Part shown: positions 5,996-42,000 of the stretch, piece after piece
How positions within the stretch are numbered: position 1 is the first letter of the stretch
Layout: every line of letters starts with the position of its first letter
Assembly: GCA_022825705.1 (NCBI GenBank)
Contig: JAJDWH010000007.1
Span: 1 to 64,000 of the forward strand
Direction: 5' to 3'
DNA length: 64,000 bases
From: Alphaproteobacteria bacterium
GTDB taxonomy: Bacteria; Pseudomonadota; Alphaproteobacteria; TMED109
Made by a program: the position numbers and the translations under genes
The notes under the pieces: model-generated
The model's database searches: none
What the model saw: the letters and a program-made list of their open reading frames with translations, nothing else
What the model was told of the DNA's origin: nothing

Positions 5996-7831
5996 TTAGG
6001 ACACGGTCACCGTCTTCGCCAAGTTGCGCGGATTGTCGACATCCGTGCCCTTCAGCACGGCCGCGTGGTAGGCCAGGAGCTGGAGGGGGACCGCGTACAG
6101 CAGAGGGGCCACGAACGGATCGGAGTGGGGCACCTTGATCGTGTGCCGGGCGGTCTCGCCGAGTTCGCTGATGCCGTTGTCGTCGCTCACCAGGATGATG
6201 GGTCCGTTTCGGGCATTCACCTCCGCGAGATTGGATGCGTTCTTGGTGAAGAGAGGGTCCGACGGCACGATTCCGACCGTCGGGACATGTTCGTCGATCA
6301 ACGCCAGCGGGCCGTGCTTGAGCTCGCCCATCGGGTACGCTTCCGCGTGGATGTACGAAATTTCCTTCATCTTCAGTGCGCCTTCGCGCGCCACTGACGC
6401 AGCCGGCCCCCGTCCCAGGTACAGGACGCTGGGGGCGCGGATAAGTTCGGAAGCGACGTCCTGAAGCCGGTTCTGGACCGCGAGGATGTCCGCCATCTTG
6501 GCCGGTACGGCGGTCAGCTCCGCGGCCAGTCGTGATTCGTGTTCGGAGTCCAGCTTGCCCCTGGCCCGACCGGCGGCCAAGGCCAGACAGGCCAGGGTGG
6601 CGAGTTGCGCGGTAAACGCCTTGGTGGACGCCACGCTGATTTCACTGCCGGCATGAATGGCGACGACCGCGTCCGCCTCGTTGGCCATGGTGCTGGAGGT
6701 CATGTTCACCAGTGCGACGGTGGGCACCCGCTGCGCCCGAAGCTGACGCAACGCGGCCAGTGTGTCGGCGGTTTCGCCGGATTGGGAAATGAGGATGGCG
6801 GCGCTCCGCCCTGCAGGACCGAACAGCAGGGCCCGGTCCTGGAACTCGGACGAGATGTCCACGTCGACGGGCAGTTGCGCCAGCTCCTCGAACCAGTGGC
6901 GCGCGACTCCCGCGGCGTAATGCGAGGTGCCGCAACCCACCAGGACCAGGCGATCAATGTCGGCAAACCCGAACGGTAGGTCAGGCGCTTCCGCCCGCAT
7001 GGCACGGGTGTCGAGGAGGGCACGCAGGGCGTCGCCGATCACGATCGGCTGCTCGTGGATCTCCTTCTGCATGTAGTGCCGATAGCCGCCTTTCCCGAAG
7101 GCGGTCGGAACGATGCTCGACGTCACCGTCGGTCGTTCGACCGGCTGGCCGTCAACGGCGCGGACCGAGACTCCGGCTGCGGTGACGGTGGCCCGGTCAC
7201 CTTCGTCGAGATGGATGATTCGATCTGTGAACGGCGCGAGTGCGAGGGCATCCGACCCGACCCAGGTTTGGTGCTCGCCGATCCCGATGGTTAGCGGGCA
7301 GCCGTGTCGCACCACGAAAATGCGTCCCGGTGCCCGCGCGACGATCGCAGCTACCGCAAATGCGCCCTTCAGGCGGGCAAAGGCCGCGTCGGCCGCGGCT
7401 TCCGGCGTAAGCCCGCGACGGAGATGAAAGACGATGAGATGGGCAATCGCTTCGGAATCGGTATCAGTCTCGAACTCGTGGCCCGCATCGGTGAGTTCCG
7501 CACGGAGCGACGAGAAGTTTTCGACGATCCCGTTGTGGACAATGGCGACCTCGGCATTGCCGTGCGGATGGGCGTTGGTCTCGTTGGGGACGCCGTGCGT
7601 GGCCCAGCGGGTGTGGGCGATCCCGGTGTCTCCCGCCATCGGCGCATCCTTGAGTACCGCCTGAAGATTCGCGACCCGTCCTGCGGCCCGGCGGCGTTCC
7701 ACCCGACCGTTCGCGAGGGTGGCGATGCCGCAGGAGTCGTAACCGCGGTAGGTGAGGTACTCGAGACCGTCGAGGAGAGGCGGCGCGGCACCATGCTCCG
7801 AAGCGCCCGCCACGCCGATGATTCCGCACAT
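5996..7831 (-). CDS. glmS: glutamine-fructose-6-phosphate aminotransferase (isomerizing)
   Basis: Makes glucosamine 6-phosphate from fructose 6-phosphate and glutamine, the entry to UDP-GlcNAc for peptidoglycan and LPS. The 611-residue protein begins MCGIIGV, giving the N-terminal nucleophile Cys after Met removal. It shows the class II glutamine amidotransferase motifs GIAHTRWATHG and HPHGN, two SIS sugar-isomerase domains with ISQSGETADT and SVASTKAFTAQ, and the conserved C-terminus DNPRNLAKTVTV. glmU ends nine bases upstream, so the two hexosamine genes are almost certainly one transcript. No glmS ribozyme is visible in that gap. Confidence 0.97.
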   Translation of the reverse strand: MCGIIGVAGASEHGAAPPLLDGLEYLTYRGYDSCGIATLANGRVERRRAAGRVANLQAVLKDAPMAGDTGIAHTRWATHGVPNETNAHPHGNAEVAIVHNGIVENFSSLRAELTDAGHEFETDTDSEAIAHLIVFHLRRGLTPEAAADAAFARLKGAFAVAAIVARAPGRIFVVRHGCPLTIGIGEHQTWVGSDALALAPFTDRIIHLDEGDRATVTAAGVSVRAVDGQPVERPTVTSSIVPTAFGKGGYRHYMQKEIHEQPIVIGDALRALLDTRAMRAEAPDLPFGFADIDRLVLVGCGTSHYAAGVARHWFEELAQLPVDVDISSEFQDRALLFGPAGRSAAILISQSGETADTLAALRQLRAQRVPTVALVNMTSSTMANEADAVVAIHAGSEISVASTKAFTAQLATLACLALAAGRARGKLDSEHESRLAAELTAVPAKMADILAVQNRLQDVASELIRAPSVLYLGRGPAASVAREGALKMKEISYIHAEAYPMGELKHGPLALIDEHVPTVGIVPSDPLFTKNASNLAEVNARNGPIILVSDDNGISELGETARHTIKVPHSDPFVAPLLYAVPLQLLAYHAAVLKGTDVDNPRNLAKTVTVS

Positions 7832-7840
7832 CGGCCGGAG

Positions 7841-9187
7841 CTAGCCGGTGCGGTGCGGGGGGCGCTGGCGTCCCCTGGAGGGCCTGACGCGTGTGGCGGC
7901 GCGTTCGACGGCGAGCGTGGAGTCCGGCACATCGCGGGTAATCGTGCTGCCGGCGCCGACAATGGCGTGGCGACCGACGCGCACCGGAGCCACCAGGGCC
8001 GAATTCGATCCGATGAACGCGCCCGCGTCCACGACGGTGTGGTGCTTCCGGGTGCCGTCGAAATTGCAGAAAATGGTCCCGGCGCCGATGTTTGCTTCGG
8101 CACCCACGGTTCCATCGCCGATGTAGGCGAGGTGGTTGGCCTTGGCGCCAGGGCCGATGACCGCGTTCTTGACCTCGACGAAATTCCCGACCCGCGCTCC
8201 GTCTTCCAGTCGCGTGCCGGGACGCAAACGGGCAAAGGGCCCGACACGGCACCCCTTGCCGATGACCGCTCCTTCAAGATGGGAGAAGGCCAGGATCTCG
8301 GTGTCGGCGTCGACCGTGACGCCCGGGCCGAAGAACACCTGGGGCTCCACCCGGACATCCGCGGCGAGCACCGTATCCCACGCGAACCATGTCGTGGCAG
8401 GGTCGAGCAGGCTGGCTCCCGCCTCCAGCGCCCGGCGGCGGAGGCGCGCTTGGAGCGCAGCCTCGCAGGCGGCGAGGTCGGCGCGGGTGTTGATGCCCAG
8501 CAGGTCGTCGGCCGGCCCTTCGATCCACGCAACGCGCCGGCCGGCGGCGTTGGCGCTGGCGACAACGTCGGTCAGCTGGTGTTCGCCGGCCGCATTGGCA
8601 GTGTCGAGTTGTGCGAGCAACGGTCCCAGGACAGCGGCGTCGGCGGCGAGGACTCCCGCATTGCAAAGGTTCGATGCCCGCACGTCGCTGGTCGCATCTC
8701 GCTCCTCGACAATCGACTTCAGGTACCCGTCTTCGTGGACTTGGAGGCGGCCGTAGCCCGACGGTTCATCGGGCCGAAATCCGAGCACTGCCAGGGCCGG
8801 CCGATCGGACTCGTTCAGGCGGTCGCGCAGCGCGGCCAGCGTGTCCGGCGCGAGGAGCGGCACGTCGGCGCAGAGAATGATGACGTCGCCCTCGAAGTCG
8901 CCGAGCGCCCGCAAGGCGATTCTGGCGGCGTCACCCGTGCCGAGCGGTTCCGGCTGCAAGGCAAACTGCGCATCCGCACAGTCGATCCGAACCGCCGCCA
9001 CCAGTGCGTCGGCACCGGGCCCGTGGACGACCACGGTGGCGGCCGGCGCCAGTTCGGCGGCGGCGGCCAGGACATGGAGAATGGCCGGTCGTGCAGCGAC
9101 GGGCTGCAGTGGCTTGAGCACACGCGAGCGCATGCGGCGGCCTGCGCCGCCAGCAAGTATCGCAGTTGCGAGTGGGCGAGCGACCAT
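7841..9187 (-). CDS. glmU: bifunctional UDP-GlcNAc pyrophosphorylase / GlcN-1-P acetyltransferase
   Basis: Acetylates glucosamine 1-phosphate and then couples it to UTP, the last two steps to UDP-GlcNAc. The N-terminal nucleotidyltransferase starts AILAGGAGRRMRSRVLKPL, with CADVPLL and GYGRLQ further on. The C-terminal half is a left-handed beta-helix of hexapeptide repeats with RLRPGTRLEDGARVGNFVE, KANHLAYIGDGTVG and NIGAGTIFCNFDGT. ATG 9187 is preferred because AAGG lies about 8 bases upstream and family alignment begins here; an open extension to 9259 exists but looks unrelated. The active-site loop has Arg-Arg where Gly-Thr-Arg is more common. Divergent from gph, with about 100 bases between starts. 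Confidence 0.94.
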   Translation of the reverse strand: MVARPLATAILAGGAGRRMRSRVLKPLQPVAARPAILHVLAAAAELAPAATVVVHGPGADALVAAVRIDCADAQFALQPEPLGTGDAARIALRALGDFEGDVIILCADVPLLAPDTLAALRDRLNESDRPALAVLGFRPDEPSGYGRLQVHEDGYLKSIVEERDATSDVRASNLCNAGVLAADAAVLGPLLAQLDTANAAGEHQLTDVVASANAAGRRVAWIEGPADDLLGINTRADLAACEAALQARLRRRALEAGASLLDPATTWFAWDTVLAADVRVEPQVFFGPGVTVDADTEILAFSHLEGAVIGKGCRVGPFARLRPGTRLEDGARVGNFVEVKNAVIGPGAKANHLAYIGDGTVGAEANIGAGTIFCNFDGTRKHHTVVDAGAFIGSNSALVAPVRVGRHAIVGAGSTITRDVPDSTLAVERAATRVRPSRGRQRPPHRTG

Positions 9188-31156: not shown

Positions 31157-32881
31157 TCAGCCCTTCGGACGGCTGCTCTTGAATCGGTCGAGCCAGATCC
31201 CGCTCAGGAACCAGGAGTAGGCCCAGGTGCCCACGAGAATCAGGGCGAAGGCCACGACGATGTCGCTTGCGCTTCCGTCGAGGGAAAAGGCGGGTACGTA
31301 GCCGAAGATGAAGGGGGCCAGATAGAGGAACTTGGCGAACTTGAAGGCGGAGAAGGCTGTCTTCCACATGTTCGCCTTGGCGATCGCCGCGCCGGTGAAC
31401 GCCGCGATGCAGACCGGGGGCGTGACGTTCGAATCCTGCGACAGCCAGTAGACGATCATGTGCGCGGCGATGGGGTTCACACCCAGTTCGGTCAGCGGGG
31501 GCACCGCCACCACCGCCGTGATGAGATAGGCGGCGGTTACGGGCACGCCCATACCAAGGATCAGCGACGCGAGGGCAATGAGCAGGATGGTCAGCCAGAG
31601 CCGACCGTCCGCAAGGGCGATCACGATGTCCGCGAAGGTGAGCACCAGCCCGCTGTACGTGAGCACGCCGATGATGATGCCGATCACACCGACCGTGGCG
31701 CCGATCTTGAGGCTGTTCTGCGCGCCTGTTCGGGCGGCCTCGAGGAAGCGTCTCGGGCCGATCCGCGTGTCCCTGCGAACCCAGCTCACGGCGACGCAGG
31801 TGAAGAGGCCGAGGATGGCGGAATAGCCTGGCGAGAAGCCCATCAACATCAGGACGGTGATGACGACGAGGGGCAGACAGTAGTACCAGCCCCGTCGGAA
31901 GATCTTCCCGGCCGATACCTCCGATTTCTCCCCCCTGATTCCGTGGCGCTTGGCCTCGTAATGCACCATCACGAAAACACTGAAGAAGTACAGGAGGGCG
32001 GGGCCCACGGCGATGAGCATGATGGTCGAGTAGGGCTCGCCCGTGAGTTCCGCCATGATGAACCCGCCGGCGCCCATGATGGGCGGCAGGAACATGCCGC
32101 CGATGGATGCTGCGGGCTCGATGCCGCCGGCGACATGGGGCTTGAACCCGGCCTTCTTCATCATTGGAATGGTGAAGTTCCCGGTGGACACCGTGTTGGC
32201 GATGGCGCTGCCCGAGATGGATCCGAAGAGGCCGCTGGCGATCACGGAAACCTTGGCCGGTCCGCCGATCTTGTGCCCGACCGCGGCCAGCGGGAAGTCC
32301 ACGAAGAAGCGCTGGGCCCCGCTCGCTTCGAGATAGGCTCCGAAGATGACGAAGAGGATCACGTACGTGGCCAGCACGTTGGCCATGATCCCGAACACGC
32401 CGTCGCTCTTGTAGAAGATGCTGGTGCAGAGCTCGGGAAAGGTGTCGCCGGCGTGCGAGATGAGTTCGGGCGCGTACTCCCCGTAGACGCCGTAGATCAG
32501 CATGACGACGCTGAGCACGACGAAGACGTTGCCGACCACCCGGCGGGCCAGCTCGATCCCGAGCAGGACGCCCGCCATGGCGATCCACTGGTCGAGCTCC
32601 GTCTCGGCGCCGACCCGGTAGTTGATGGCCTCGAAGTTCCACATCCAGTACCCGATGCAGGTGATGGAGGCGGCGATCAGCAGGTAGTCGCAGAGCCTGC
32701 CCACCCGGCTTCTCGAGCGGTACAGGAGGAACACGAGAACGTACGTGATGACGACGTAGATGCCGCGGTGGAACTGCGTCGCGGCCGGGTCGAGCACGGC
32801 CGCGTACGAGTAGAAGCCGACGAGGCCGAGCGACAGGCCGTCGAAGATCCACCGCTCGACGCGATTCAGCTGCTCGAACAT
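31157..32881 (-). CDS. TRAP transporter fused permease (TAXI type, DctQ-DctM)
   Basis: A 574-residue membrane protein. The N-terminal roughly 170 residues carry about four segments (DctQ-like, e.g. YAAVLDPAATQFHRGIYVVI). The C-terminal part is DctM-like with many segments, including FPLAAVGHKIGGPAKVSVIA, SGLFGSISGSAIANTVSTGN and LILGMGVPVTAAYLITAV. This is the 4TM/12TM fusion used with TAXI-family periplasmic binding proteins for sodium-driven organic-acid or amino-acid uptake. The matching TAXI protein and a 61-residue partner lie on the same strand 8-11 kb away (40.8-42 kb), separated by the oxidase-like cluster. ATG 32881 begins MFEQLNRVERWIFDG. Confidence 0.92.
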   Translation of the reverse strand: MFEQLNRVERWIFDGLSLGLVGFYSYAAVLDPAATQFHRGIYVVITYVLVFLLYRSRSRVGRLCDYLLIAASITCIGYWMWNFEAINYRVGAETELDQWIAMAGVLLGIELARRVVGNVFVVLSVVMLIYGVYGEYAPELISHAGDTFPELCTSIFYKSDGVFGIMANVLATYVILFVIFGAYLEASGAQRFFVDFPLAAVGHKIGGPAKVSVIASGLFGSISGSAIANTVSTGNFTIPMMKKAGFKPHVAGGIEPAASIGGMFLPPIMGAGGFIMAELTGEPYSTIMLIAVGPALLYFFSVFVMVHYEAKRHGIRGEKSEVSAGKIFRRGWYYCLPLVVITVLMLMGFSPGYSAILGLFTCVAVSWVRRDTRIGPRRFLEAARTGAQNSLKIGATVGVIGIIIGVLTYSGLVLTFADIVIALADGRLWLTILLIALASLILGMGVPVTAAYLITAVVAVPPLTELGVNPIAAHMIVYWLSQDSNVTPPVCIAAFTGAAIAKANMWKTAFSAFKFAKFLYLAPFIFGYVPAFSLDGSASDIVVAFALILVGTWAYSWFLSGIWLDRFKSSRPKG

Positions 32882-33055
32882 CGTCCGGGCATTATGGCCA
32901 GGATCGGGGTGCGAGGCGCTGTCCGGTGGTCTTCGGACCGGACACCGAACCGCGGTCTCGCCTGATGCTGACAACATTGGACGAGGCCCGCCCGGCATCG
33001 GCGGCCGCGGTCTGAAGGATGTCGGCGCGCGCGGGTGCCAAGCGAGAGGAACGGG

Positions 33056-33661
33056 TCAACCAAGGATCGTTTCCCCGGCGGCGCCGGCGAACGCCTTCTG
33101 CATCCAAGCGGGTATGTCGGCGGAGCGAAGCTTCTCGAACTCGGCCGGGCGGAGAGCGGCCTTGATGGTGGCGATCGCCTGCGGTGTCACGTTGCTCTTG
33201 CCGAGATACCACAGCGCGGAGAGTGCGACACCCGTCGGCTCGCCGGCGAACTGCAGCCGGCGGCGGTTCGAGGTGTGGACCATCCTCACGGCGATGGCGC
33301 CAATGCGGATCGTGCGGCTGGATGCGCTGGTATGGAACACGGGCGCGATCGGCACCTGTGTGGTGAGCCCGAAGCGTCTCGCGGCCTCGGCGCCGTGGAT
33401 CTGGATCGTCTCGCCGTTCCTGCGCGCTATGGTCTCGACCACCTCGTGGATATCGGGCATGACGGTCCCGACGAACCGGCTGGTCCTCGGGCGAACGAAG
33501 ACGCCGTGGGCGAGACGCCGGATCTCACCGTCCGCGGCGAGGCGGGAAAGGGCCCGGTCGACGGCGCTGCGGGCGCCGTGCTTCAGGAAGCGGGCGCCAG
33601 TGAAGGGCTTGCCCCGGGGCAGCTTCCGTATGGCGGCTCGAACGGCCTTCGCAGTCGACAT
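33056..33661 (-). CDS. DUF6088 / AbiEi-like regulator, orphan antitoxin
   Basis: A 201-residue protein with an N-terminal winged helix (IRKLPRGKPFTGARFL, then SAVDRALSRLAADGEIRRLA and HGVFVRP) and the AbiEi-like C-terminal region. These proteins are related to type IV antitoxins that repress their own operons and pair with a nucleotidyltransferase toxin. No toxin gene precedes or follows; neighbours are the TRAP permease and hemerythrin. ATG 33661 is supported by the AAAGGG site and by a promoter/operator 20-50 bases upstream. It may be a leftover antitoxin or a stand-alone regulator of the flanking minus-strand genes. Confidence 0.8.
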   Translation of the reverse strand: MSTAKAVRAAIRKLPRGKPFTGARFLKHGARSAVDRALSRLAADGEIRRLAHGVFVRPRTSRFVGTVMPDIHEVVETIARRNGETIQIHGAEAARRFGLTTQVPIAPVFHTSASSRTIRIGAIAVRMVHTSNRRRLQFAGEPTGVALSALWYLGKSNVTPQAIATIKAALRPAEFEKLRSADIPAWMQKAFAGAAGETILG

Positions 33662-33675
33662 GGTGGCACCCTTTC

Positions 33676-33712
33676 TTGTCCAAATATATGGCGATAGTTT
33701 AGACAAATGCAA
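33676..33712 (-). promoter_or_regulatory. promoter and operator palindrome of DUF6088 gene
   Basis: On the minus strand, TTGCAT (33712-33707) and TATATT (33688-33683) are 18 bases apart. An imperfect inverted repeat TTGTCCAAA (33676-33684) / TTTAGACAA (33698-33706), 8 of 9 paired, covers the -10 and the spacer. This is a natural place for autorepression. The spacer also contains GCGATAGTT, shared with the AbiEi promoter at 57.9 kb. Confidence 0.5.
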
Positions 33713-33955
33713 GGGGTGGTATCGAACTCCCGGGCGTGGGTTCAATGCTCGGTGGGGCTGCCCGAATCAGGGGCCGAGGATGCCGTGCGATGCGGCTTGG
33801 CGCGCCGACCGGCCGAGCGCGGCGCCGCAACGCGTGGCCGGTATCGCATGCCCGCGCGGCGCTCGGCGGGGCGTGCAGGAGCGGGACGCGGGATGTTCGA
33901 ATGTTCAGCTGGCCATGCGGCAGCGCTGCCTGATTGATGGACGCGCTGTTCGCGT

Positions 33956-34363
33956 TCACATGCCTCGGTCATGGAGGAAGGTGTGCAGGCGGGCATCCTT
34001 CGTGCGGAAGTGCCCGCCGAACCACGTTTCCAGCTGCTCGCCTAATTCCGCCTCGAATTCTGCATAGCTGCCTTCCTCGAACGCGTCCATGATGTCCCTG
34101 ATGTCGTCCAACAGGGTTTCGTGGTCTTCCTTGTGGTCGGCGTACTCGTCGTATTCCAGTTCGCGCATGATCCGTTCCTCGAGGGCAAAATGCGCGGAGA
34201 TGCTTGCGTGGATCTCACCGAGAAAATCGGCGACGGTCTCCCGCGTGGCACCCTGGCCGAGCCGCTCGTGGAGCTGGTTGATGAGGTCGATCAACTCGCG
34301 GTGCTCGTGATCGACCGCCTCGATCCCGATTTCGAAGGCCTTGCGCCAGACGATCAGCGCCAT
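33956..34363 (-). CDS. bacteriohemerythrin
   Basis: A 135-residue non-heme diiron O2-binding four-helix protein. All expected ligands are present: His21, His58, Glu62 (HFALE), His77 and His81 (HKEDH), His118 and Asp123 (HFRTKD). Bacterial hemerythrins carry O2 to oxidases, sense O2 or protect against NO. It lies just downstream of, and on the same strand as, the heme-copper cluster, about 40 bases after the hypothetical gene, so it could be the last gene of that transcript. The start is ATG 34363. Confidence 0.92.
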   Translation of the reverse strand: MALIVWRKAFEIGIEAVDHEHRELIDLINQLHERLGQGATRETVADFLGEIHASISAHFALEERIMRELEYDEYADHKEDHETLLDDIRDIMDAFEEGSYAEFEAELGEQLETWFGGHFRTKDARLHTFLHDRGM

Positions 34364-34400: not shown

Positions 34401-34901
34401 TCATCGGATGATGAACCCCTCGCCGCCGCGGAAATCCACGGCAACGCTTTCTCCGGCGGCAAACTCGACCGCCTCCCGGGCAACATGATCGAACCCTTCG
34501 CTCCGCCGGGAATCGCGCAGGCGTAGATCGAGGACGTGACGGCCGGCGGGGAGGGCAAACCGTTCGTAGACGCGCGAAGGGCCGTCACCGGCAAGCCCCG
34601 TCGGCGGCAGCAGCGCCTGGTACAGCGGCACCCCGTCGAGGTCGATCTCGAAGCGCAGCTCCACTCGCTCACGCGGGCAGTCCAGCGCACTCCGCATGTT
34701 GGCCGCCAATTCGGCAAGCTCCTCCCGCGTCCGTTTCCGGCATTCGACCTTGCGGTCACCGCCGTGCGAAAAGCTCACCTTGAGCAGGGCCTCCCCCTCG
34801 GGGAAATGGCGGAACGACGGATTGCTCGAAAAGAACCCGACCACCGCGACGAAGGCGGCGAGCACGGCGGCTTGGCCCACATACCGGAGCGCCCTGATCA
34901 T
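34401..34901 (-). CDS. uncharacterised membrane-anchored protein of the heme-copper cluster
   Basis: A 166-residue protein with one N-terminal hydrophobic segment (residues 8-24, QAAVLAAFVAVVGFF). A periplasmic domain follows, with VECRKRTREELAELAANMR, LRFEIDLDGVPLYQ and RHVLDLRLRDS. I recognise no family. Its start overlaps the end of the cytochrome b-ferredoxin gene by four bases (ATGA), so it is translationally coupled and very likely works with that complex, perhaps as an assembly or structural subunit. Confidence 0.75.
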   Translation of the reverse strand: MIRALRYVGQAAVLAAFVAVVGFFSSNPSFRHFPEGEALLKVSFSHGGDRKVECRKRTREELAELAANMRSALDCPRERVELRFEIDLDGVPLYQALLPPTGLAGDGPSRVYERFALPAGRHVLDLRLRDSRRSEGFDHVAREAVEFAAGESVAVDFRGGEGFIIR

Positions 34902-36487
34902 GAGCTGCCGACGCCTCCATCCCCGTGTGCGCGGCCGAAGCGCGCGCCGAGTTGCCGGGCCGACGGAATTTCCTGGGGCGGCAGTTCGCGGACGTTGTCG
35001 AGGAAGGTCGCGACGGACCGCCGCAGCCGCGCCGACTGGTGCGGTTCGAAGCCGTCGCAGCGCACGCGTTCACGTGGCACCCGTTTGCGCAGACCCGGGT
35101 CCCGCTGGCGGTCCAGGCGGGCCTCGGTCCACGTGTCACCGAGACGGAAGTGACAGTTTCCCTCCGCACAGCCGGCCAGGTAGACGCCTGCGGCGCCGCA
35201 GCGGCTCAGGAGGTAGTCGATGAACGAGGGGGGCAGGGCGCCGACGCAGGGCAGCGCGGCCACCGCGACCCCAGGGCGCTGGAGCGTCTCCGGTCTGACC
35301 CCGTGCTCACAGGCTAGGAGGTAGACCTGCTGGCCGTCCGCATCCGCCATTCGGTCGAGCCGATCCCGCAACGCCGCCAGCGTGGCATCGGGCAGCTCGA
35401 TCCCCGGCACGAGAGCAGCGGCGCGGCGGAATGGGGTCGCCGTCGGGCAGGATCCCGCGCAAATGCCGCAGCTCACGCATAGGGAGTCTTTCACGACTGC
35501 CTCCCGGTCGAACGGCTTGCCATCGGTGCGGTGCTCCATCGAGATCGCGTTGAAGGGGCAGTCCTCGGCGCAGCGGGCGCATCCGTTGCAGTTGTCGAGA
35601 TCGACCTGCGCGACCGCGGGACGGCGAAACGGCGGCAGCCATGGCATGGCGGCCAGCGTGAGCGTCAATATCGCCGCCGTGACCCACACCGTGCCGTGGG
35701 ACCAGAGATCCAGCAAGGGGTAGAACCCGAGGTAGAACCAGTCGAGGTCGAGAACCGTCGGCACCTTCGCGAGATCAGCCGGCGCGTGACTCGTCGCCGG
35801 CACGACGAGCGAGAGGACGAGCAGCGCCGTGAAGCTGGCGGCGGCCAGGCCGCGCGGCGGGTTGATGCGCGGTCGACTCACACGTTGCAGGTGCAACCAC
35901 AGCGCCAGCAGCAACAGCAGCGGCACGGCTATGTGCAGGAATACGAGCCAGGTGAAGAACCGGTCGTCGAGCGCGTCGGGCGCCAGGAAGTTGCGGGCGA
36001 CGGGCTCGCCGAAGATCGGCAGCCAGTCGAGCCACTCCGTGGTTGCGATGGCGACGTACTGCGCCAGCTGGTCCCACACCAGCCAGTAGCCGGTGATGCC
36101 GGACGCGAGGACCAGCAGGATGATCGGGACGCCGGTGAGCCAGCTGAACCAGCGTGCGCCGCGAAGACGGTCATAGGCGAACTCGCGGATCAAATGCAGC
36201 ACCATGACGACCACCATGGCGTCCCCGGCGTACCGGTGCAGGCTCCGCATCACCCCGGCGAGGTACCACTGGTCCTCCGTCATGTAGGCGACGGAGTCGT
36301 AGGCTTCGGTGACACCGGTATCGAAGAAGACGTAGACGTAGATCCCGCTGATCGCGACGATCCAGTAGAAGAAGAACCCCAGCGCTCCGAGGTTGTAGAG
36401 GGGGTTCCAGGCGGCCCCGAACACCCGCGACGTCCAGTCGTCGAGGCGCCAGAATGCCGGTCGCAGGATGCGTTGGAGCGCCGTCAC
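34898..36487 (-). CDS. cytochrome b - dicluster ferredoxin - MvhD-like fusion protein
   Basis: A 529-residue three-part electron-transfer protein. Residues 1-230 are a cytochrome b/b6 N-terminal domain, with heme ligands His84/His98 and His185/His199, each pair 14 residues apart. Two further membrane segments follow at about 215-285. Cys300/303/306/310 and Cys337/340/343/347 bind two [4Fe-4S] clusters. The last 150 residues resemble the MvhD/FlpD iron-sulfur domain (VYLLACEHG, ALPCVGALP, LAGCAEGNCHFRLG). Such a protein could link the quinone pool to cytoplasmic carriers or feed the CuA enzyme encoded with it. GTG 36487 is chosen: it gives the family N-terminus and starts 17 bases after SCO. 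Confidence 0.85.
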   Translation of the reverse strand: MTALQRILRPAFWRLDDWTSRVFGAAWNPLYNLGALGFFFYWIVAISGIYVYVFFDTGVTEAYDSVAYMTEDQWYLAGVMRSLHRYAGDAMVVVMVLHLIREFAYDRLRGARWFSWLTGVPIILLVLASGITGYWLVWDQLAQYVAIATTEWLDWLPIFGEPVARNFLAPDALDDRFFTWLVFLHIAVPLLLLLALWLHLQRVSRPRINPPRGLAAASFTALLVLSLVVPATSHAPADLAKVPTVLDLDWFYLGFYPLLDLWSHGTVWVTAAILTLTLAAMPWLPPFRRPAVAQVDLDNCNGCARCAEDCPFNAISMEHRTDGKPFDREAVVKDSLCVSCGICAGSCPTATPFRRAAALVPGIELPDATLAALRDRLDRMADADGQQVYLLACEHGVRPETLQRPGVAVAALPCVGALPPSFIDYLLSRCGAAGVYLAGCAEGNCHFRLGDTWTEARLDRQRDPGLRKRVPRERVRCDGFEPHQSARLRRSVATFLDNVRELPPQEIPSARQLGARFGRAHGDGGVGSS

Positions 36488-36504: not shown

Positions 36505-37332
36505 TCAGATCCGCGAGCGGGGGCGACGATGCCGGAGCCAGCCGCGGGCGACGAAGAAGCCCAGGGTGCCGAGCAAGGCGACGCCGACGGCGATGCCGAT
36601 GAAGGGGGAGTAGTCGAACCGGTAGCGGCCGCTCCACGGGTCGTAGATCGTGCAGAACAGGCGGATCCGATTGATCAGTCCCTCATACGATGTCGGCACG
36701 CTCTGGCGGCCGAAGACCAAGTCCTTCAGCGGCTCCACCAGGAACGGCGCATCGAACATCGCCCCGTACACCTGGCGGTAGATGACGCCGTCCGCGTCGA
36801 CGACCGTCGTCTGGGTGAGATGGTCGAAGCCCTTTGCCGACGGGAAGAACAGGAAGCCGAGATCCTTCGACAGCCGGGCGATGGTGTCGGAATCGGCGCT
36901 GGCGAACCGCCAGCCGTCGTCGCGGATCCCATGGTTCGCGGCAAACTCCCGCATCCGCTCCGGCGTATCCATCCGCGTGTCAAATCCGACGGTAAGCACC
37001 TGGAAACTGTCCCGGCCGACCGCTTCGCGCGCAATGTCGATGGAGTCCGCCAGCGTCTCGATGACGAGCGGGCAGCCGAAGGCGCAACTGGTATAGACCA
37101 GGTTGATCAGCAACGGGCGGCCGCGAAACTCCGCGAGCGAGAGCCGTCGCAACGAAGCATCACGAAACTCGTAGCCGGAAAGCGTCCGTCCCACGGCCGC
37201 CTGGCTGTCGGCGAGTGCTTGATCAGGATCGAAGGCGGTCGTGGCCGGGGCCGCAGTCAGTCCCGGCAGGGCCGGGAACAGGCAAAGCGCCGCCAGGGCC
37301 CACGCTCCAACCAGCCCTACAAGGGCACCCAT
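36505..37332 (-). CDS. SCO1/SenC-family copper chaperone
   Basis: A 275-residue thioredoxin-fold protein that delivers copper to CuA sites. Copper ligands are Cys83 and Cys87 (TSCAFGCPL) and His171 (KGFDHLTQT). There is an N-terminal signal/anchor and, unusually, a second hydrophobic segment near the C-terminus (IGIAVGVALLGTLGFFVARG), giving a periplasmic domain held at both ends. It overlaps cyoE by 16 bases and precedes the cytochrome b fusion. Its presence fits maturation of the CuA subunit encoded at 39.9 kb. Confidence 0.9.
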   Translation of the reverse strand: MGALVGLVGAWALAALCLFPALPGLTAAPATTAFDPDQALADSQAAVGRTLSGYEFRDASLRRLSLAEFRGRPLLINLVYTSCAFGCPLVIETLADSIDIAREAVGRDSFQVLTVGFDTRMDTPERMREFAANHGIRDDGWRFASADSDTIARLSKDLGFLFFPSAKGFDHLTQTTVVDADGVIYRQVYGAMFDAPFLVEPLKDLVFGRQSVPTSYEGLINRIRLFCTIYDPWSGRYRFDYSPFIGIAVGVALLGTLGFFVARGWLRHRRPRSRI

Positions 37333-38183
37333 GCGTCCGCCATGGCCCCGATCAGAATCAACGAGAGCTGCAGCAGGGAGGCCTTGAAGTTCGCTCGCGC
37401 CGCAGCCGGCCCGGGTGCCCGTACGAGTGCGATGCTCTTCGCGACAAATATCCAGCCGCCGACCAACGCCAGGGCGAGATAGACCAAGCCTAGCCCGAAG
37501 AAGAAGGGCAGCAGGGATGCGGCGACGAGCGCCACGGTATTGGCCAGAATGACCTTGGCTGCCCTTCCGTCGCCGATCACGACGGGCAGCATCGGGACCC
37601 CGGCCTGGACATAGTCATCGCGCGTCGCCATCGCCAGGCTCCAGAAGTGCGGCGGCGTCCAGAGGAACAGCACGATGGCGAGGCAGACTGGCAGGGCGGA
37701 AGGAGCCGGGTCGACGGCGGCCGCGCCCGCCAGCACCGCGAAACTGCCTGACAGGCCGCCGATGACGATGTTGAGCCAGGTGCGGCGCTTGAGCCACACG
37801 GTGTAGACGATCCCGTAGACGAAGGCGCCGAGGAACACGTGCGTGGCGGCCATCGGGTTGGTGGCCCATGCGGCCAGCGTCACGGACACCACGAGCAGCG
37901 CACCGATGAGCGCAAGCCAGGCCGGACCGGCGGTGTAGCGGCCCGAGACGAAGGGCCGATCGCGGGTGCGGATCATGCGCGCATCGAGATCGCGCTCAGC
38001 GAACTGGTTGAAGGCGCCGGCGCTGGCGGCTCCCAAGAGCACGGCAAGGGCGAGGGCCGCTGCGTTCCAGAAGGGGACGGGCGGACCGGGCGTCACCGCG
38101 AGGCCCGCCAATGCGCTCAGGGCGATTGCGAAGCCGATCCGCAGCTTGAAGACACCGCATAGCTGCCGGATGTCTGCGGCCAT
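37317..38183 (-). CDS. cyoE: protoheme IX farnesyltransferase (heme O synthase)
   Basis: A 288-residue polytopic UbiA-family prenyltransferase that adds farnesyl to heme b. The prenyl-diphosphate site is NQFAERDLDARMIRTRDRP near residue 57, with the second Asp-rich region around YGIVYTVWLKRRTWLN. Seven to nine membrane segments are evident. Placement between catalytic subunit I and SCO implies that the enzyme's high-spin heme is heme O or a derivative. No heme A synthase (CtaA) is in the window. Confidence 0.93.
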   Translation of the reverse strand: MAADIRQLCGVFKLRIGFAIALSALAGLAVTPGPPVPFWNAAALALAVLLGAASAGAFNQFAERDLDARMIRTRDRPFVSGRYTAGPAWLALIGALLVVSVTLAAWATNPMAATHVFLGAFVYGIVYTVWLKRRTWLNIVIGGLSGSFAVLAGAAAVDPAPSALPVCLAIVLFLWTPPHFWSLAMATRDDYVQAGVPMLPVVIGDGRAAKVILANTVALVAASLLPFFFGLGLVYLALALVGGWIFVAKSIALVRAPGPAAARANFKASLLQLSLILIGAMADAWVPL

Positions 38184-38198
38184 GCCGGACGCCTCCGC

Positions 38199-39923
38199 TC
38201 AACTCAAAGGCCAGACCTCCGAGAGGAACTTCCAGTTGACGAAGTAGTACAGCACGAACGCCACGAAGAAGATTGCCACGAGCGTGATCGTGCCAGGCAG
38301 CTTGAGCGTCCCCTCGCTGCCGTAGCTCGCAACCGCTGCAGCGCCGCCTTGGGGTAGCAGCGGCTCGGCCTTCGCTTTCTCCTCGGTTCGTCGCTCGCCG
38401 AAGAAGACGGAGCTCACTACCACCACGACGTACATCAGGCCACCCAGGGCCGAGAGCACGCCGAACACGCCGTTCAGTCCCATCATCAGGAAGGCCGTGC
38501 CGGGATAGTCGAAAGCCACGGGTGCATCGGAGAAGGTGATGTCCCAATGGCGTCGGCTGACACCGAGCGTGCCCGCTCCCATCATGAACAGCGATATCCC
38601 CGCGACGCCGATACCGAAGACGTACGGCTGCCATTGCGCCAGCTTCTTGAACATGATCTCGCGGCGGAAAATCAGCGGCACCACGAGGTAGGTGACGGCC
38701 ATGAAGGCGAGCGTCGTCCCGGCGACCACGGTGCCGTGGAAATGGCCCGGCACGTACATGGTGTTGTGCATGATCAGGTTGATCTGCTCGGAACCGAGTA
38801 CCACGCCGGAGATCCCGCCGATGAAGCCGAACATGACGAGCGACAGGAACATTCCCGCGAAGGCCGGATTACCCCACGGCGCCTTCCGCAACCATTCGAA
38901 CACGCCCTTGGTATAGCCCCGCCGGCGCTGGGCCGCTTCGATGGCGCCCGGGACGCTGAGGCCGTGGATGAGGCTGCCGAGCACCGCGAGGTACAGCGCG
39001 TAGCTCGTATTGAAGATCTTCCATTCCGAGCTGATCCCCGGCTCCACCAGCAGATGGTGTGCGGCAGCGATCTGCAGGAACAGGATGTACATGAGGAAGG
39101 CGAAACGACTCACCTTCTCGGACAGCGGCTTGGCGCCCAGCACCATCGCGGCGATGGCATACCACACCGCGACATGGGCCGAGACGTTGATCTGCTGGGA
39201 CGAGTGGCCCATGCCCCACCAAACGACCTTGTACATCACCGGGTCGATGTGACTGATCAGGCCGATCGACCAGAGGAAGGTGGGAATGAGGATGATGGCG
39301 CCCGAGGTGATGGTGAATACCGCGATGATCGCCGCGGCGATGGCGCCGAACGTGACCAGCGGTACCGAGCCCTCGTAGGTGCCCTCGTCTTTCGCGATCA
39401 CCAGCGTGCCGAAGAACACGGCGACGGCCACCAGGGCACCGACCGCGAAGAGGATCAGGCCGAGGTAGAAGTGGGGCGCCGCCTGCATGGGCACGTAGGA
39501 CGTGAACATGACGCTCGATTCGCCCTGCAGCACCGCCACGTTGGCGAGCAGGGCGCCGGCCAGCATCAGCCAGAACCCGAGCCAAGCGATCCGCGGGGTC
39601 GCGAGGCGGGAGTTGAGCAGGATCGCCGAGGCGAAGTAGAGGATGGCAATTTCGAAGAAGATGACCCAGAACAGCAACACGTCGGCGCCGTGCGCCGTCA
39701 GGGCCAGGTAGAACCACTCCGCGGGCAGCAGGTGGACCGCCGGCCAGCGCGTCAGCGCCACCAGCAGGCCGAACAGGCCCCCGACGGCAAGGAACACGAC
39801 GGCGACGACCGCGTTCCACCGGATCAGCTTCTCGGCCGCAAGATCGACCCTGAGACCGGTGTCGGGACAGGTCCGGAATTCGGCAGCTCTCGGCAGCGTA
39901 CCGGCATGAGCGATGCTCGCCAT
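38199..39923 (-). CDS. B-type heme-copper oxidoreductase catalytic subunit lacking the active-site Tyr (candidate CuA nitric oxide reductase)
   Basis: A 574-residue membrane protein. Low-spin heme ligands are His78 (TAHGADVLLFW) and His396; the high-spin heme ligand is His394 (YVPGHFH); CuB ligands are His240, His289 and His290 (AAAHHLLVEPG). Helix X and helix VII resemble ba3 oxidases. In oxygen reductases of types A and B, His-Pro-x-x-Tyr supplies the cross-linked Tyr four residues after the first CuB His. Here the sequence is GMGHSSQQINV, so Gln244 replaces it and Pro is also lost. Enzymes without this Tyr in helix VI are C-type oxidases, which this is not, or NO reductases. CuA-containing NORs derived from B-type oxidases (sNOR, eNOR) are known, so NO reduction is the best inference; database labels will probably say oxidase subunit I. 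Confidence 0.85.
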   Translation of the reverse strand: MASIAHAGTLPRAAEFRTCPDTGLRVDLAAEKLIRWNAVVAVVFLAVGGLFGLLVALTRWPAVHLLPAEWFYLALTAHGADVLLFWVIFFEIAILYFASAILLNSRLATPRIAWLGFWLMLAGALLANVAVLQGESSVMFTSYVPMQAAPHFYLGLILFAVGALVAVAVFFGTLVIAKDEGTYEGSVPLVTFGAIAAAIIAVFTITSGAIILIPTFLWSIGLISHIDPVMYKVVWWGMGHSSQQINVSAHVAVWYAIAAMVLGAKPLSEKVSRFAFLMYILFLQIAAAHHLLVEPGISSEWKIFNTSYALYLAVLGSLIHGLSVPGAIEAAQRRRGYTKGVFEWLRKAPWGNPAFAGMFLSLVMFGFIGGISGVVLGSEQINLIMHNTMYVPGHFHGTVVAGTTLAFMAVTYLVVPLIFRREIMFKKLAQWQPYVFGIGVAGISLFMMGAGTLGVSRRHWDITFSDAPVAFDYPGTAFLMMGLNGVFGVLSALGGLMYVVVVVSSVFFGERRTEEKAKAEPLLPQGGAAAVASYGSEGTLKLPGTITLVAIFFVAFVLYYFVNWKFLSEVWPLS

Positions 39924-39932
39924 GGCTAGCTC

Positions 39933-40478
39933 CTATTCTGCTGCGACCACGTGGATCTTGCCCACCATCTGGTGGTGGCCGATCCCGCAGTACTCGTTGC
40001 AAACGACCCCGTACTCCCCGACGCCCTCGGGTGTGAGCGTCAGCACCAGCTCATAGCCGGGATGGACCTGGATGTTGATGTTCTCGGGCTGCAGCGAGAA
40101 ACCGTGCTGCCAGTCCATCGAGGAGAGGTGCAGGCGGTAGTCCTTGCCTTCCTCCAGCTCGAGGATTGGCCACCACTCCCAGAGGCGCGCCAGCATGTAC
40201 ACGTCGCTGCCCGGGGGTGGACGCACGACGGGTAGACCTGTCTCCCCCTCTTCGCGCACCGTGTACTGGTCCACCATCGCCTCGGTGCGCTCGGCGAACG
40301 TTTCGGGGTGTATTCGGTAGGCCTCGTTGGAGAGGTTCTGTTCGCCGGTGAAGTGCCAGAAGACCATGGTGAAGAACATCACCAGGCCCCAGATGAACGC
40401 GATCGTGATCCAGGTGATTTCCGATTTTTCGAGCGGCTCGTTCCACCAGATCCGTTTTTCAGGCGGGTGAATGGCCAT
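39933..40478 (-). CDS. CuA-containing subunit II of the heme-copper enzyme
   Basis: A 181-residue subunit with one N-terminal membrane helix (residues 22-42) and a cupredoxin domain. CuA ligands are His125 (DWQHGFSL), Cys160, Cys164, His168 and Met171 (VVCNEYCGIGHHQM), with the same spacing as the small ba3 subunit II. It takes electrons from a soluble or membrane cytochrome and passes them to subunit I, whose gene follows after nine bases. A binuclear copper site of this quality argues that the complex is functional. Confidence 0.93.
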   Translation of the reverse strand: MAIHPPEKRIWWNEPLEKSEITWITIAFIWGLVMFFTMVFWHFTGEQNLSNEAYRIHPETFAERTEAMVDQYTVREEGETGLPVVRPPPGSDVYMLARLWEWWPILELEEGKDYRLHLSSMDWQHGFSLQPENINIQVHPGYELVLTLTPEGVGEYGVVCNEYCGIGHHQMVGKIHVVAAE

Positions 40479-40493
40479 GTCGGGACCTCCGGA

Positions 40494-40670
40494 CTATTGC
40501 GCGATGGGAATTTGGGCTACCTCCATGATGCCCCACATGAGATAGAGAACCGCCGGCACGGCGACACCCAGGAAGAGCAGCAGGAACGGGTTGTCCAGCA
40601 AGCGCTGCATGAAGGGCACGCGCTCGACCGGTTGTTCCGGCGAACCAGCGTCTTGACCTGTATCTGTCAT
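40494..40670 (-). CDS. small single-helix membrane protein of the heme-copper cluster
   Basis: A 58-residue protein with a polar N-terminus and one strong membrane segment (PFLLLFLGVAVPAVLYLMWG), ending IPIAQ. It starts 15 bases before the CuA subunit gene; AAGGGG lies about 7 bases before its ATG and a promoter is 60 bases upstream. Position and topology resemble the small extra subunits (IIa-like or CcoQ-like) of ba3 and cbb3 enzymes. Confidence 0.8.
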   Translation of the reverse strand: MTDTGQDAGSPEQPVERVPFMQRLLDNPFLLLFLGVAVPAVLYLMWGIMEVAQIPIAQ

Positions 40671-41016: not shown

Positions 41017-42000
41017 CTAGAGCAAGCCCTGCTCGACCCAGAACCGCTCAGCGCCCGGATGCAATGGCGTGACGATCCCCTTGAGCGCGTTCTCGACACC
41101 CATTTCCTTGAACGTCTCCTTCTGCTGCCGCATGTACGCGAGCCCGGCGTCCGTGTAGATCTTGGCAAGCAGGTCGTAGACCACGTCGTCCGGGACGTCC
41201 GCGTTGGCGACCCACAGCGCCGAATCCTGGAACGAGGGAGTCGCATGGTCGACGCCCCGGTAGGTACCGGCGGGGACCGCGAGACCGGAGAAGTAGGGGT
41301 ACCGCTCGAAGAAGCCGGTCGCCTCCGCGTCCGCCGCCAGGTCGACGAGATCGATGTCGTTCGTCTGGGCGGCCATGATCACGGCCCCGCTCGGGAAGGC
41401 CGTGAACAGCCAGAATGCATCGAGCTGGCGGTTGCCGAATGCGGCGGCCGCGTCGTTGTAGCCCATCGCGTTCCGTTCGACGGCGTCCCAGATGCCCACG
41501 TGCGTGAAGAACAGCTCGCAGTTCGCGAAGGCGCCGGAGCCGGCATTCCCGACCCCGACCTTCTTGCCGACGAGGTCCTTCACGCTCTTGATTCCCGACC
41601 CTTGGCGGACGATCAGCTGGGCTGGCGCGCCGTACAGGTAGGCGACGGCAAGCACGTCGTCGTACGTGCGGTCATCGTTCTTCAGCTGGCCTTCCCGGCC
41701 CAGGTACACGTGGCCGGAGTAGACCACCCCGAACTGCATCTTGCCGCGGTTGATCCGGCGGAGGTTCTCGAGCGAGCCCGCCGATGACTGCGCCTTGACC
41801 GTGTAGTCCTCGGACTCCTTGACCGGCCCGTAGGTCTGGATGGCATTGGCGACGATCTGGAACGTGCCTCCGGCCGGTCCGCCGCCGAAGACCATGCGCT
41901 GGCCGACCGCATCGGCGGTCGGCAGTACCACCGCGAGGGCCAGCAGCGCGGCCCCGACGGTCCCGAAGATCTTGCGATTCACCTGCATGACAACGCTCAC
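41017..42000 (-). CDS. TAXI-family TRAP transporter solute-binding protein
   Basis: A 327-residue periplasmic protein with a signal peptide (VGAALLALAVVLPTADAVG, cleavage near 32). The TAXI signatures are VFGGGPAGGTFQIVANAIQ, SSAGSLENLRRINRGKMQFG and VKDLVGKKVGVGNAGSGAF. It captures a small organic solute for the TRAP permease encoded at 31.2-32.9 kb. No other TRAP permease is in the window, so the two are probably partners in spite of the 8-kb gap. The ligand is not predictable. Confidence 0.92.
   Translation of the reverse strand: MSVVMQVNRKIFGTVGAALLALAVVLPTADAVGQRMVFGGGPAGGTFQIVANAIQTYGPVKESEDYTVKAQSSAGSLENLRRINRGKMQFGVVYSGHVYLGREGQLKNDDRTYDDVLAVAYLYGAPAQLIVRQGSGIKSVKDLVGKKVGVGNAGSGAFANCELFFTHVGIWDAVERNAMGYNDAAAAFGNRQLDAFWLFTAFPSGAVIMAAQTNDIDLVDLAADAEATGFFERYPYFSGLAVPAGTYRGVDHATPSFQDSALWVANADVPDDVVYDLLAKIYTDAGLAYMRQQKETFKEMGVENALKGIVTPLHPGAERFWVEQGLL

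Follow-up and report, generated by a model that had tools for sequence, protein, structure and literature searches.

A conserved cytochrome b–ferredoxin–FlpD fusion and its probable role beside eNOR-type nitric oxide reductases in proteobacteria

In a 64,000-nucleotide stretch of alphaproteobacterial DNA (contig JAJDWH010000007.1, positions 1 to 64,000; "the window" below), a single gene joins a cytochrome b, a 2[4Fe-4S] ferredoxin and an FlpD/MvhD-like domain. On balance, we lean toward the view that this fusion is an accessory electron-transfer module serving eNOR, a nitric oxide (NO) reductase, in proteobacteria. The fusion is found beside an NO reductase-type copper enzyme in many proteobacteria, so it probably links the electron chemistry of that enzyme to the cell interior. 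We hold this view because of co-occurrence across genomes, gene order, natural gene fusions, kept redox ligands, an invariant Asp-Trp pair, charge bias and the NO context. The features that carry the argument are the following.

34898..36487, minus strand: cytochrome b / 2[4Fe-4S] ferredoxin / FlpD fusion, 529 residues (Pfam, conservation, AlphaFold2 model)
35624..36487, minus strand: cytochrome b part of the fusion, residues 1-288, helices A-F (structure alignment, His conservation, charge bias)
35732..35746, minus strand: Qo-motif position, residues 248-252, LDWFY (conservation, profile alignment)
35432..35611, minus strand: 2[4Fe-4S] ferredoxin domain, residues 293-352, eight Cys (Pfam, conservation)
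34973..35326, minus strand: FlpD/MvhD-like domain, residues 388-505, Cys393/414/440/445 (Pfam, conservation, MvhD alignment)
34401..34901, minus strand: 166-residue protein, N-terminal hydrophobic helix and predicted beta-sandwich (model, conservation)
38199..39923, minus strand: eNOR-type subunit I, motif GHSSQQ (Pfam, structure-sequence comparison, conservation)
39933..40478, minus strand: eNOR-type subunit II (CoxB-type match, ligand conservation)

The fusion gene is a minus-strand open reading frame (ORF) with a GTG start; the matching plus-strand frame is interrupted by stops. A preliminary description of this DNA had proposed the three-part architecture, and Pfam matches above the gathering score bear out all three domains: Cytochrome_B at residues 28-201 (79.2 bits), Fer4_7 at residues 299-350 (36.4 bits) and FlpD at residues 404-502 (44 bits). 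The full chain, whose structure prediction that description had envisaged, was modeled by AlphaFold2 with a mean predicted local distance difference test score (pLDDT) of 90.6. A scan of GTDB contigs confirmed 205 relatives: the fusion is a widespread family and not a one-off, which rules out a chance ORF. We fetched the best 80, all with proteobacterial titles. Together with locus L089 they form the 81-sequence set used for conservation, in which L002-L007 and L014/L015 are mutually close. Alignment A1 (65 sequences including the window) excludes near-duplicates as well as truncated ORFs and long, fused ones; alignments A3 and A4 hold 34 and 26 sequences.

The proposed ligands are kept throughout the family. 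The histidines of the two heme b sites (His84/98 and His185/199) and the eight ferredoxin cysteines (Cys300/303/306/310 and Cys337/340/343/347) are invariant in all 81 relatives. In the FlpD domain, Cys393, Cys414 and Cys440 are kept in 81 of 81 and Cys445 in 80; the sole relative without the fourth cysteine, L039 (11129-11500), has a glycine in its place. The FlpD cluster cysteines are thus conserved, and therefore the objection foreseen in the preliminary description, that homologues might have lost the C-terminal cluster ligands, fails; a degenerate FlpD domain is ruled out. In one close relative (L002:10001-11815, 605 residues) the C-terminal frame of the fusion leaves the family pattern, apparently by a frameshift, and the same break is present in G005, apparently the same genome.

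Across 299 genomes of the phylum, the fusion occurs in 19, a close eNOR subunit I in 19 and both in 18 (Fisher p 1e-26), where subunit I was counted at E < 1e-200 only and the distant B-family members of G324 and G337 (E ~1e-42) were left out. The two genes lie on different contigs in 6 of the 18 genomes (G092, G102, G106, G129, G161 and G169) and more than 13 kb apart in two more (G122 and G137), so adjacency alone does not explain the association. The fusion of G106 begins 361 bases from the contig start and subunit I of G161 begins at base 6, so both of these pairs may still be linked; in G129, among others, both genes sit well inside long contigs. All 20 genomes with either gene also have a strong cytochrome d1-family match (E <= 1e-70; 19 genomes) or NirK (one genome), compared with 68 of the other 279 (p 4e-12). 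NirF and NirN match the d1 profile too, so not every d1-family match is a proven NirS. Among 61 near genomes, only 8 carry a full-length fusion (7 of the genus, including the window's own genome, and G028); the remainder gave bc1-type or ferredoxin matches, or none.

The 80 loci show the same genes together. Counts here are lower bounds, many contigs being short: subunit I at 69 loci, subunit II at 61, the heme o synthase CtaB at 38, SCO at 71, the 166-residue protein at 78 and a hemerythrin-like protein at 51. The commonest order, found at 25 loci, is subunit II, subunit I, ctaB, SCO, fusion, 166-residue protein, hemerythrin, and the SCO, fusion and 166-residue genes share one strand wherever they are found. 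The second objection foreseen in the preliminary description, expression of the gene apart from the oxidase genes, finds no support at sequence level: the fusion lies with subunit I at 69 loci and shares genomes with it. Eleven loci gave no subunit I match. Nine of these (L016, L052, L063, L068, L071, L073, L077, L079 and L081; L019 and L036, with contigs of ~4 kb or less, were left out) were traced genome-wide, and a full eNOR-like subunit I was found elsewhere in seven genomes, a fragment in one and none in one. Two traced genomes, G357 and G360, coincide with G129 and G106 of the phylum sample and are not independent of it. NirS-like genes are present at 23 loci and NosR-like genes at 12, labels that come from Pfam matches (Cytochrom_D1 and, for the latter, Fer4_5 only). 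Matches to a NOD/NOR-like query at 38 of the 80 loci were set aside and the count was not used: that query is a COX1 relative.

The neighboring heme-copper enzyme provides the NO context. Its subunit I reads HSSQQ where Thermus ba3 oxidase, the nearest solved structure, reads HPIVY, placing a glutamine at the position of the cross-linked tyrosine, and both glutamines are kept in all 63 loci that cover the site. Subunit II gave a CoxB match of 43 bits, below the cut-off of 147.7; His125, Cys160, Glu162, Cys164, His168 and Met171, which we take to be the CuA ligands, are each kept in 61 of 61. An active-site glutamine defines eNOR and sets it apart from oxygen reductases; the enzyme is described as an NO reductase of the nitrogen cycle that is seldom reported and often carries an oxidase annotation (PMC8756737). 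The alphaproteobacterial subtype ba3-a1 has been equated with eNOR, with NO reductase activity cited (PMC8879329); another account of ba3-a1 describes an operon containing SCO, notes the missing tyrosine and leaves the function open (PMC6431628). eNOR has also been characterized biochemically (PMC11388526). By its active-site glutamine, the CuA enzyme beside the fusion is of the eNOR type rather than an oxidase, and it is predicted to reduce NO. As part of the genomic context, the window's own genome encodes a copper nitrite reductase, NirK (475.7 bits). No strong cytochrome d1 match was found in that genome (best 40 bits).

The preliminary description had drawn a membrane route from low-potential carriers to quinones or to the CuA enzyme. 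The route is still the best reading; what changes is the enzyme, which by its glutamine is eNOR-type. The setting it had assumed, in which the fusion serves a CuA cytochrome oxidase that respires O2, can draw on the ba3 oxidase as the closest solved structure and on the annotation of the Defluviimonas homologue as a cbb3-type cytochrome c oxidase subunit I. The catalytic tyrosine, however, is replaced by glutamine in the window and at every locus covering the site, which is the published mark of eNOR (PMC8756737), and NO reductase activity is cited for the subtype (PMC8879329). We regard O2 respiration as very improbable, and the O2 reductase was dropped as a candidate partner. The preliminary description had overlooked the neighbor's eNOR-type signature, the Qo-motif region and a short, conserved ORF that precedes subunit II.

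We then compared the membrane part with known cytochromes. The structure alignment informs mainly residues 13-288 of the model, which superpose on bc1 cytochrome b, for example residues 24-311 of the murine chain 7o37_C (VIA-align). The 50 matches listed have Z scores of 20.7-24.5 over 250-268 aligned residues, and the superposition takes in helices A-F together with the ef loop. The four heme-ligating histidines lie in helices B and D, as in cytochrome bc complexes. By homology, His84 would pair with His185 on the positive (p) side of the membrane and His98 with His199 on the negative (n) side. The ef loop carries LDWFY at the place of the canonical PEWY, and Asp249-Trp250 is invariant, in 65 of 65 sequences of A1 and 81 of 81 of the wider set. 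When the A3 profile is compared with b6f subunit IV (E 7.2e-5), Asp249-Trp250 falls on the Glu-Trp of PEWY; the register rests on this profile match, with which the structure alignment agrees. Pfam finds Cytochrom_B_C in the ef-loop region at no better than E 2.1. In PEWY-type motifs, the second residue has been associated with the potential of the cofactors and with the type of quinone (PMC9162462). A quinone pocket is predicted on the p side next to His84/His185.

Charge bias orients the module. Averaged over 65 sequences, loops on the assumed n side hold 2.3-4.0 Lys and Arg residues, versus 0.3-1.1 on the assumed p side. By the positive-inside rule and by fold, the ferredoxin and FlpD domains would thus lie in the cytoplasm. 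Three of the four FlpD cysteines are in register with solved MvhD, Cys393 falling outside that alignment, and the domain presumably binds a [2Fe-2S] cluster, as we take MvhD to do. A HdrA2 profile covers both soluble domains: positions 569-775 of 777 match residues 290-506 with 65.8 bits for the full chain, and positions 570-775 match the C-terminal part with 68.3 bits, compared with 44-46 bits for FlpD alone; the HdrA2 scores are far below the curated whole-HdrA2 cut-off of 1100. Since the profile spans ferredoxin and FlpD together, the soluble part is like the C-terminal end of an HdrA2-type protein that lacks its flavin domain.

The preliminary description had found no hydrogenase or Hdr genes in the window, and their absence extends genome-wide, as far as searched. 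The FlpD family has a single match in the window's own genome (93.6% complete). The large subunit of NiFe hydrogenase is absent from all 7 genomes of the genus, and none of the 7 has an HdrA2 above the cut-off; weaker matches exist, the best in the genome G000 being the fusion itself. A hydrogenase or Hdr link was ruled out by these searches.

The model of the 166-residue protein (pLDDT 94.5) shows one hydrophobic helix and, after it, a beta-sandwich. In 10 of the 79 complete ORFs, the reading frame of the fusion runs on from FlpD into this protein (L022, L036, L038, L040, L054, L058, L059, L061, L069 and L078); all ten loci have gammaproteobacterial titles and several are apparently related, so that independent fusion events number fewer than ten. 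These fusions fit an arrangement with FlpD inside, one transmembrane pass and the sandwich outside, and the protein may mediate contact of the module with eNOR. A Foldseek search of the PDB with the model gave nothing at E <= 0.001 (best 4.7e-3), a search of PDB sequences with its profile yielded only two matches, both weak (best E 0.022), and Pfam and NCBIfam gave zero matches.

If these parts act together, the module would work as follows. A six-helix cytochrome b, holding two hemes and, toward the periplasm, a quinol-type pocket, would be wired through two [4Fe-4S] clusters to the cytoplasmic [2Fe-2S] FlpD domain, a putative docking point for a soluble redox partner, with the 166-residue protein as a periplasmic subunit. 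Electrons would move among a carrier in the cytoplasm, the quinone pool and the periplasmic side of the membrane, on which eNOR accepts them at CuA, and the likeliest net use would be to feed NO reduction beside or instead of the bc1 complex. Quinone binding, complex formation, topology and electron path are all predictions of this scheme.

Several observations weigh against a module serving eNOR. In the phylum sample, G125 has subunit I but not the fusion, and the converse holds for G165. The 19 fusion-positive genomes fall in 11 genera; with sampled genomes that are related, the p values exaggerate the strength of the association. The 166-residue protein has no recognizable redox cofactor, and a cytoplasmic partner for FlpD was not found among [NiFe] hydrogenase, a second FlpD or an HdrA2 above the cut-off. 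The window's contig (C30) carries no Rieske gene; 8 Rieske-domain matches occur elsewhere in the genome, one of them adjoining a bc1-type cytochrome b. The Rieske motif was found at 0 of 80 loci in a pattern search run without a positive control. The Qo-type pocket is so left without an evident one-electron acceptor, which argues against a standard Q cycle.

Plasmids add a further point of this kind. Subunit I matched 61 plasmid records, of which we inspected those of Defluviimonas, Thermomicrobium, one Thermus and one Haloarcula. One Thermus thermophilus and one Thermomicrobium plasmid carry an eNOR-type subunit I (GHGAQQ) with subunit II adjoining, the latter plasmid also with a heme o synthase beside them, and the fusion is absent within 10 kb on either side of both clusters (one plasmid each), so the fusion is not a general requirement for eNOR to reduce NO. 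The Haloarcula subunit I reads HPVVY and hence is of the oxidase type. Of the 17 plasmid records that gave a match, Defluviimonas alone carries the fusion at nearly full length. It has the same gene order as the window, and its fusion homologue is annotated only as "cytochrome b N-terminal domain-containing protein". From these plasmid neighborhoods, the module looks like an addition of proteobacterial eNOR, outside the minimal enzyme.

The pocket and the soluble domains also bear on a different use of the fusion. In a bifurcating quinol oxidase, quinol would be oxidized at the periplasmic pocket; one electron would go to CuA, cytochrome c or another acceptor and then to NO, and the other through the hemes and clusters to FlpD, where it would drive reduction of a low-potential cytoplasmic carrier. 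The invariance of Asp-Trp and of both heme pairs and the HdrA2-type nature of the ferredoxin–FlpD module speak for this, but the Rieske-domain matches all lie off the window's contig, the pattern search found no Rieske motif at the 80 loci, and the Qo motif reads LDWF and not PEWY; we consider bifurcation unlikely. A specific form of it, a new-layout eNOR quinol oxidase in which a truncated, Rieske-less cytochrome b splits the electron pair between NO, via CuA, and an acceptor at FlpD, seems slightly less probable again. If it were true, NO reduction would pay for making low-potential reductant.

The other genes of the cluster raise the question of assembly. They are listed here with the small ORF mentioned above.

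36505..37332, minus strand: SCO1/SenC protein (Pfam; 71 of 80 loci)
37317..38183, minus strand: heme o synthase CtaB/CyoE (Pfam and NCBIfam-type profile; 38 of 80 loci)
40494..40670, minus strand: 58-residue hydrophobic ORF, possible subunit IIa, directly upstream of subunit II
33956..34363, minus strand: hemerythrin-like protein at the downstream end of the cluster (Pfam; 51 of 80 loci)

CcoG, DsbD and TlpA-type systems play an assembly-reductant role for other oxidases. The fusion could likewise be a maturation factor that brings electrons from the cytoplasm through the membrane and so reduces copper, the thiols of SCO or the CuA-site cysteines while eNOR is being assembled. It lies just downstream of SCO, CtaB belongs to the same cluster, both recur at the frequencies listed, and the 166-residue protein has two conserved cysteines, Cys54 (77 of 78 relatives) and Cys75 (78 of 79). 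An invariant quinol-site Asp-Trp and two hemes nevertheless exceed the needs of a thiol or copper reductase, and the Thermus and Thermomicrobium clusters manage without the fusion. We give maturation perhaps one chance in several, ahead of bifurcation, and continue to prefer electron transfer to eNOR.

We also noted other features of the cluster and its surroundings. A hydrophobic ORF similar to the 58-residue one precedes subunit II in 55 of 60 loci with a loosened pattern, where a stricter motif gave 1 of 60. In the control it appears in 1 of 3519 stretches outside that site; a first control (56 of 3700) overlapped true sites, which the second excludes. Similar ORFs occur in the Thermus, Thermomicrobium and Defluviimonas records, and in place and size the 58-residue ORF resembles subunit IIa of ba3 oxidase. 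The hemerythrin-like gene is on the opposite strand in 6 loci; its product might act as a carrier or sensor of NO or O2, or as the partner of FlpD in the cytoplasm. The eNOR cluster is flanked on one side by an NMT1-like (TAXI-type) solute-binding protein (41017-42000, minus strand) and on the other by a DctM permease of the tripartite ATP-independent periplasmic (TRAP) type (31157-32998, minus strand), with a DUF6088 protein (33056-33745, minus strand) between the cluster and the permease. The same two flanks are found in L002-L005, as if the eNOR cluster sat within a transporter locus. In L050 a second, divergent COX1-family protein of 491 residues (6685-8160) directly follows the 166-residue gene, and similar ORFs in L013, L029 and L070 cluster with it. 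A promoter scan found 1 site versus 1.0 expected, which is chance level, and terminator-like sites numbered 8 versus 4.2 expected, mostly inside genes.

eNOR and each single domain of the fusion are already known. We found no paper on the three-part fusion in the literature searched; the key eNOR paper and figures lie outside that literature, and a prior description is possible. If a membrane module of its own connects eNOR with the cytoplasm, cytochrome c and the bc1 complex would not be the enzyme's sole supply of electrons, and nitrous oxide formation in many proteobacteria could be coupled directly to the redox state of the cytoplasm. In genome surveys, the fusion gene may be useful as a marker of proteobacterial eNOR. 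A hydrogenase-type docking domain where no [NiFe] hydrogenase was found raises the question of what docks there.

How does the fusion compare with known systems? It shares with described eNOR (ba3-a1) clusters the active-site glutamine of subunit I, the CuA-type subunit II and SCO, but the text of the eNOR literature searched, figures excluded, mentions neither a cytochrome b–ferredoxin–FlpD protein nor the 166-residue protein. Like MvhD/FlpD of [NiFe] hydrogenase–Hdr complexes, it has an FlpD-family domain with cluster cysteines; unlike those systems, it occurs in a genus whose 7 genomes hold no [NiFe] hydrogenase and no HdrA2 above the cut-off. The best NCBIfam match of the membrane part is to ExtP/ExtQ, a b-type cytochrome pair of a selenite/tellurite operon (ExtP 105.1 bits at residues 30-207, cut-off 290; ExtQ 25.1 bits at residues 217-286, cut-off 150; neither reached), but here the membrane part is fused to ferredoxin and FlpD. 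With bc1/b6f cytochrome b it shares helices A-F, two bis-His heme sites and an ef loop, in which its Asp-Trp lies at the PEWY position; it differs in lacking helices G-H, in its cytoplasmic iron-sulfur extension and in having no Rieske gene on the contig. With HdrA2 and QmoB it shares a contiguous ferredoxin–MvhD didomain, but it has no FAD domain, and its residues 13-288 are a cytochrome b. The membrane cytochrome QmoC is of another type. As a whole, Qmo likewise joins iron-sulfur and MvhD-like domains to the membrane and to quinone (PMC4911364).

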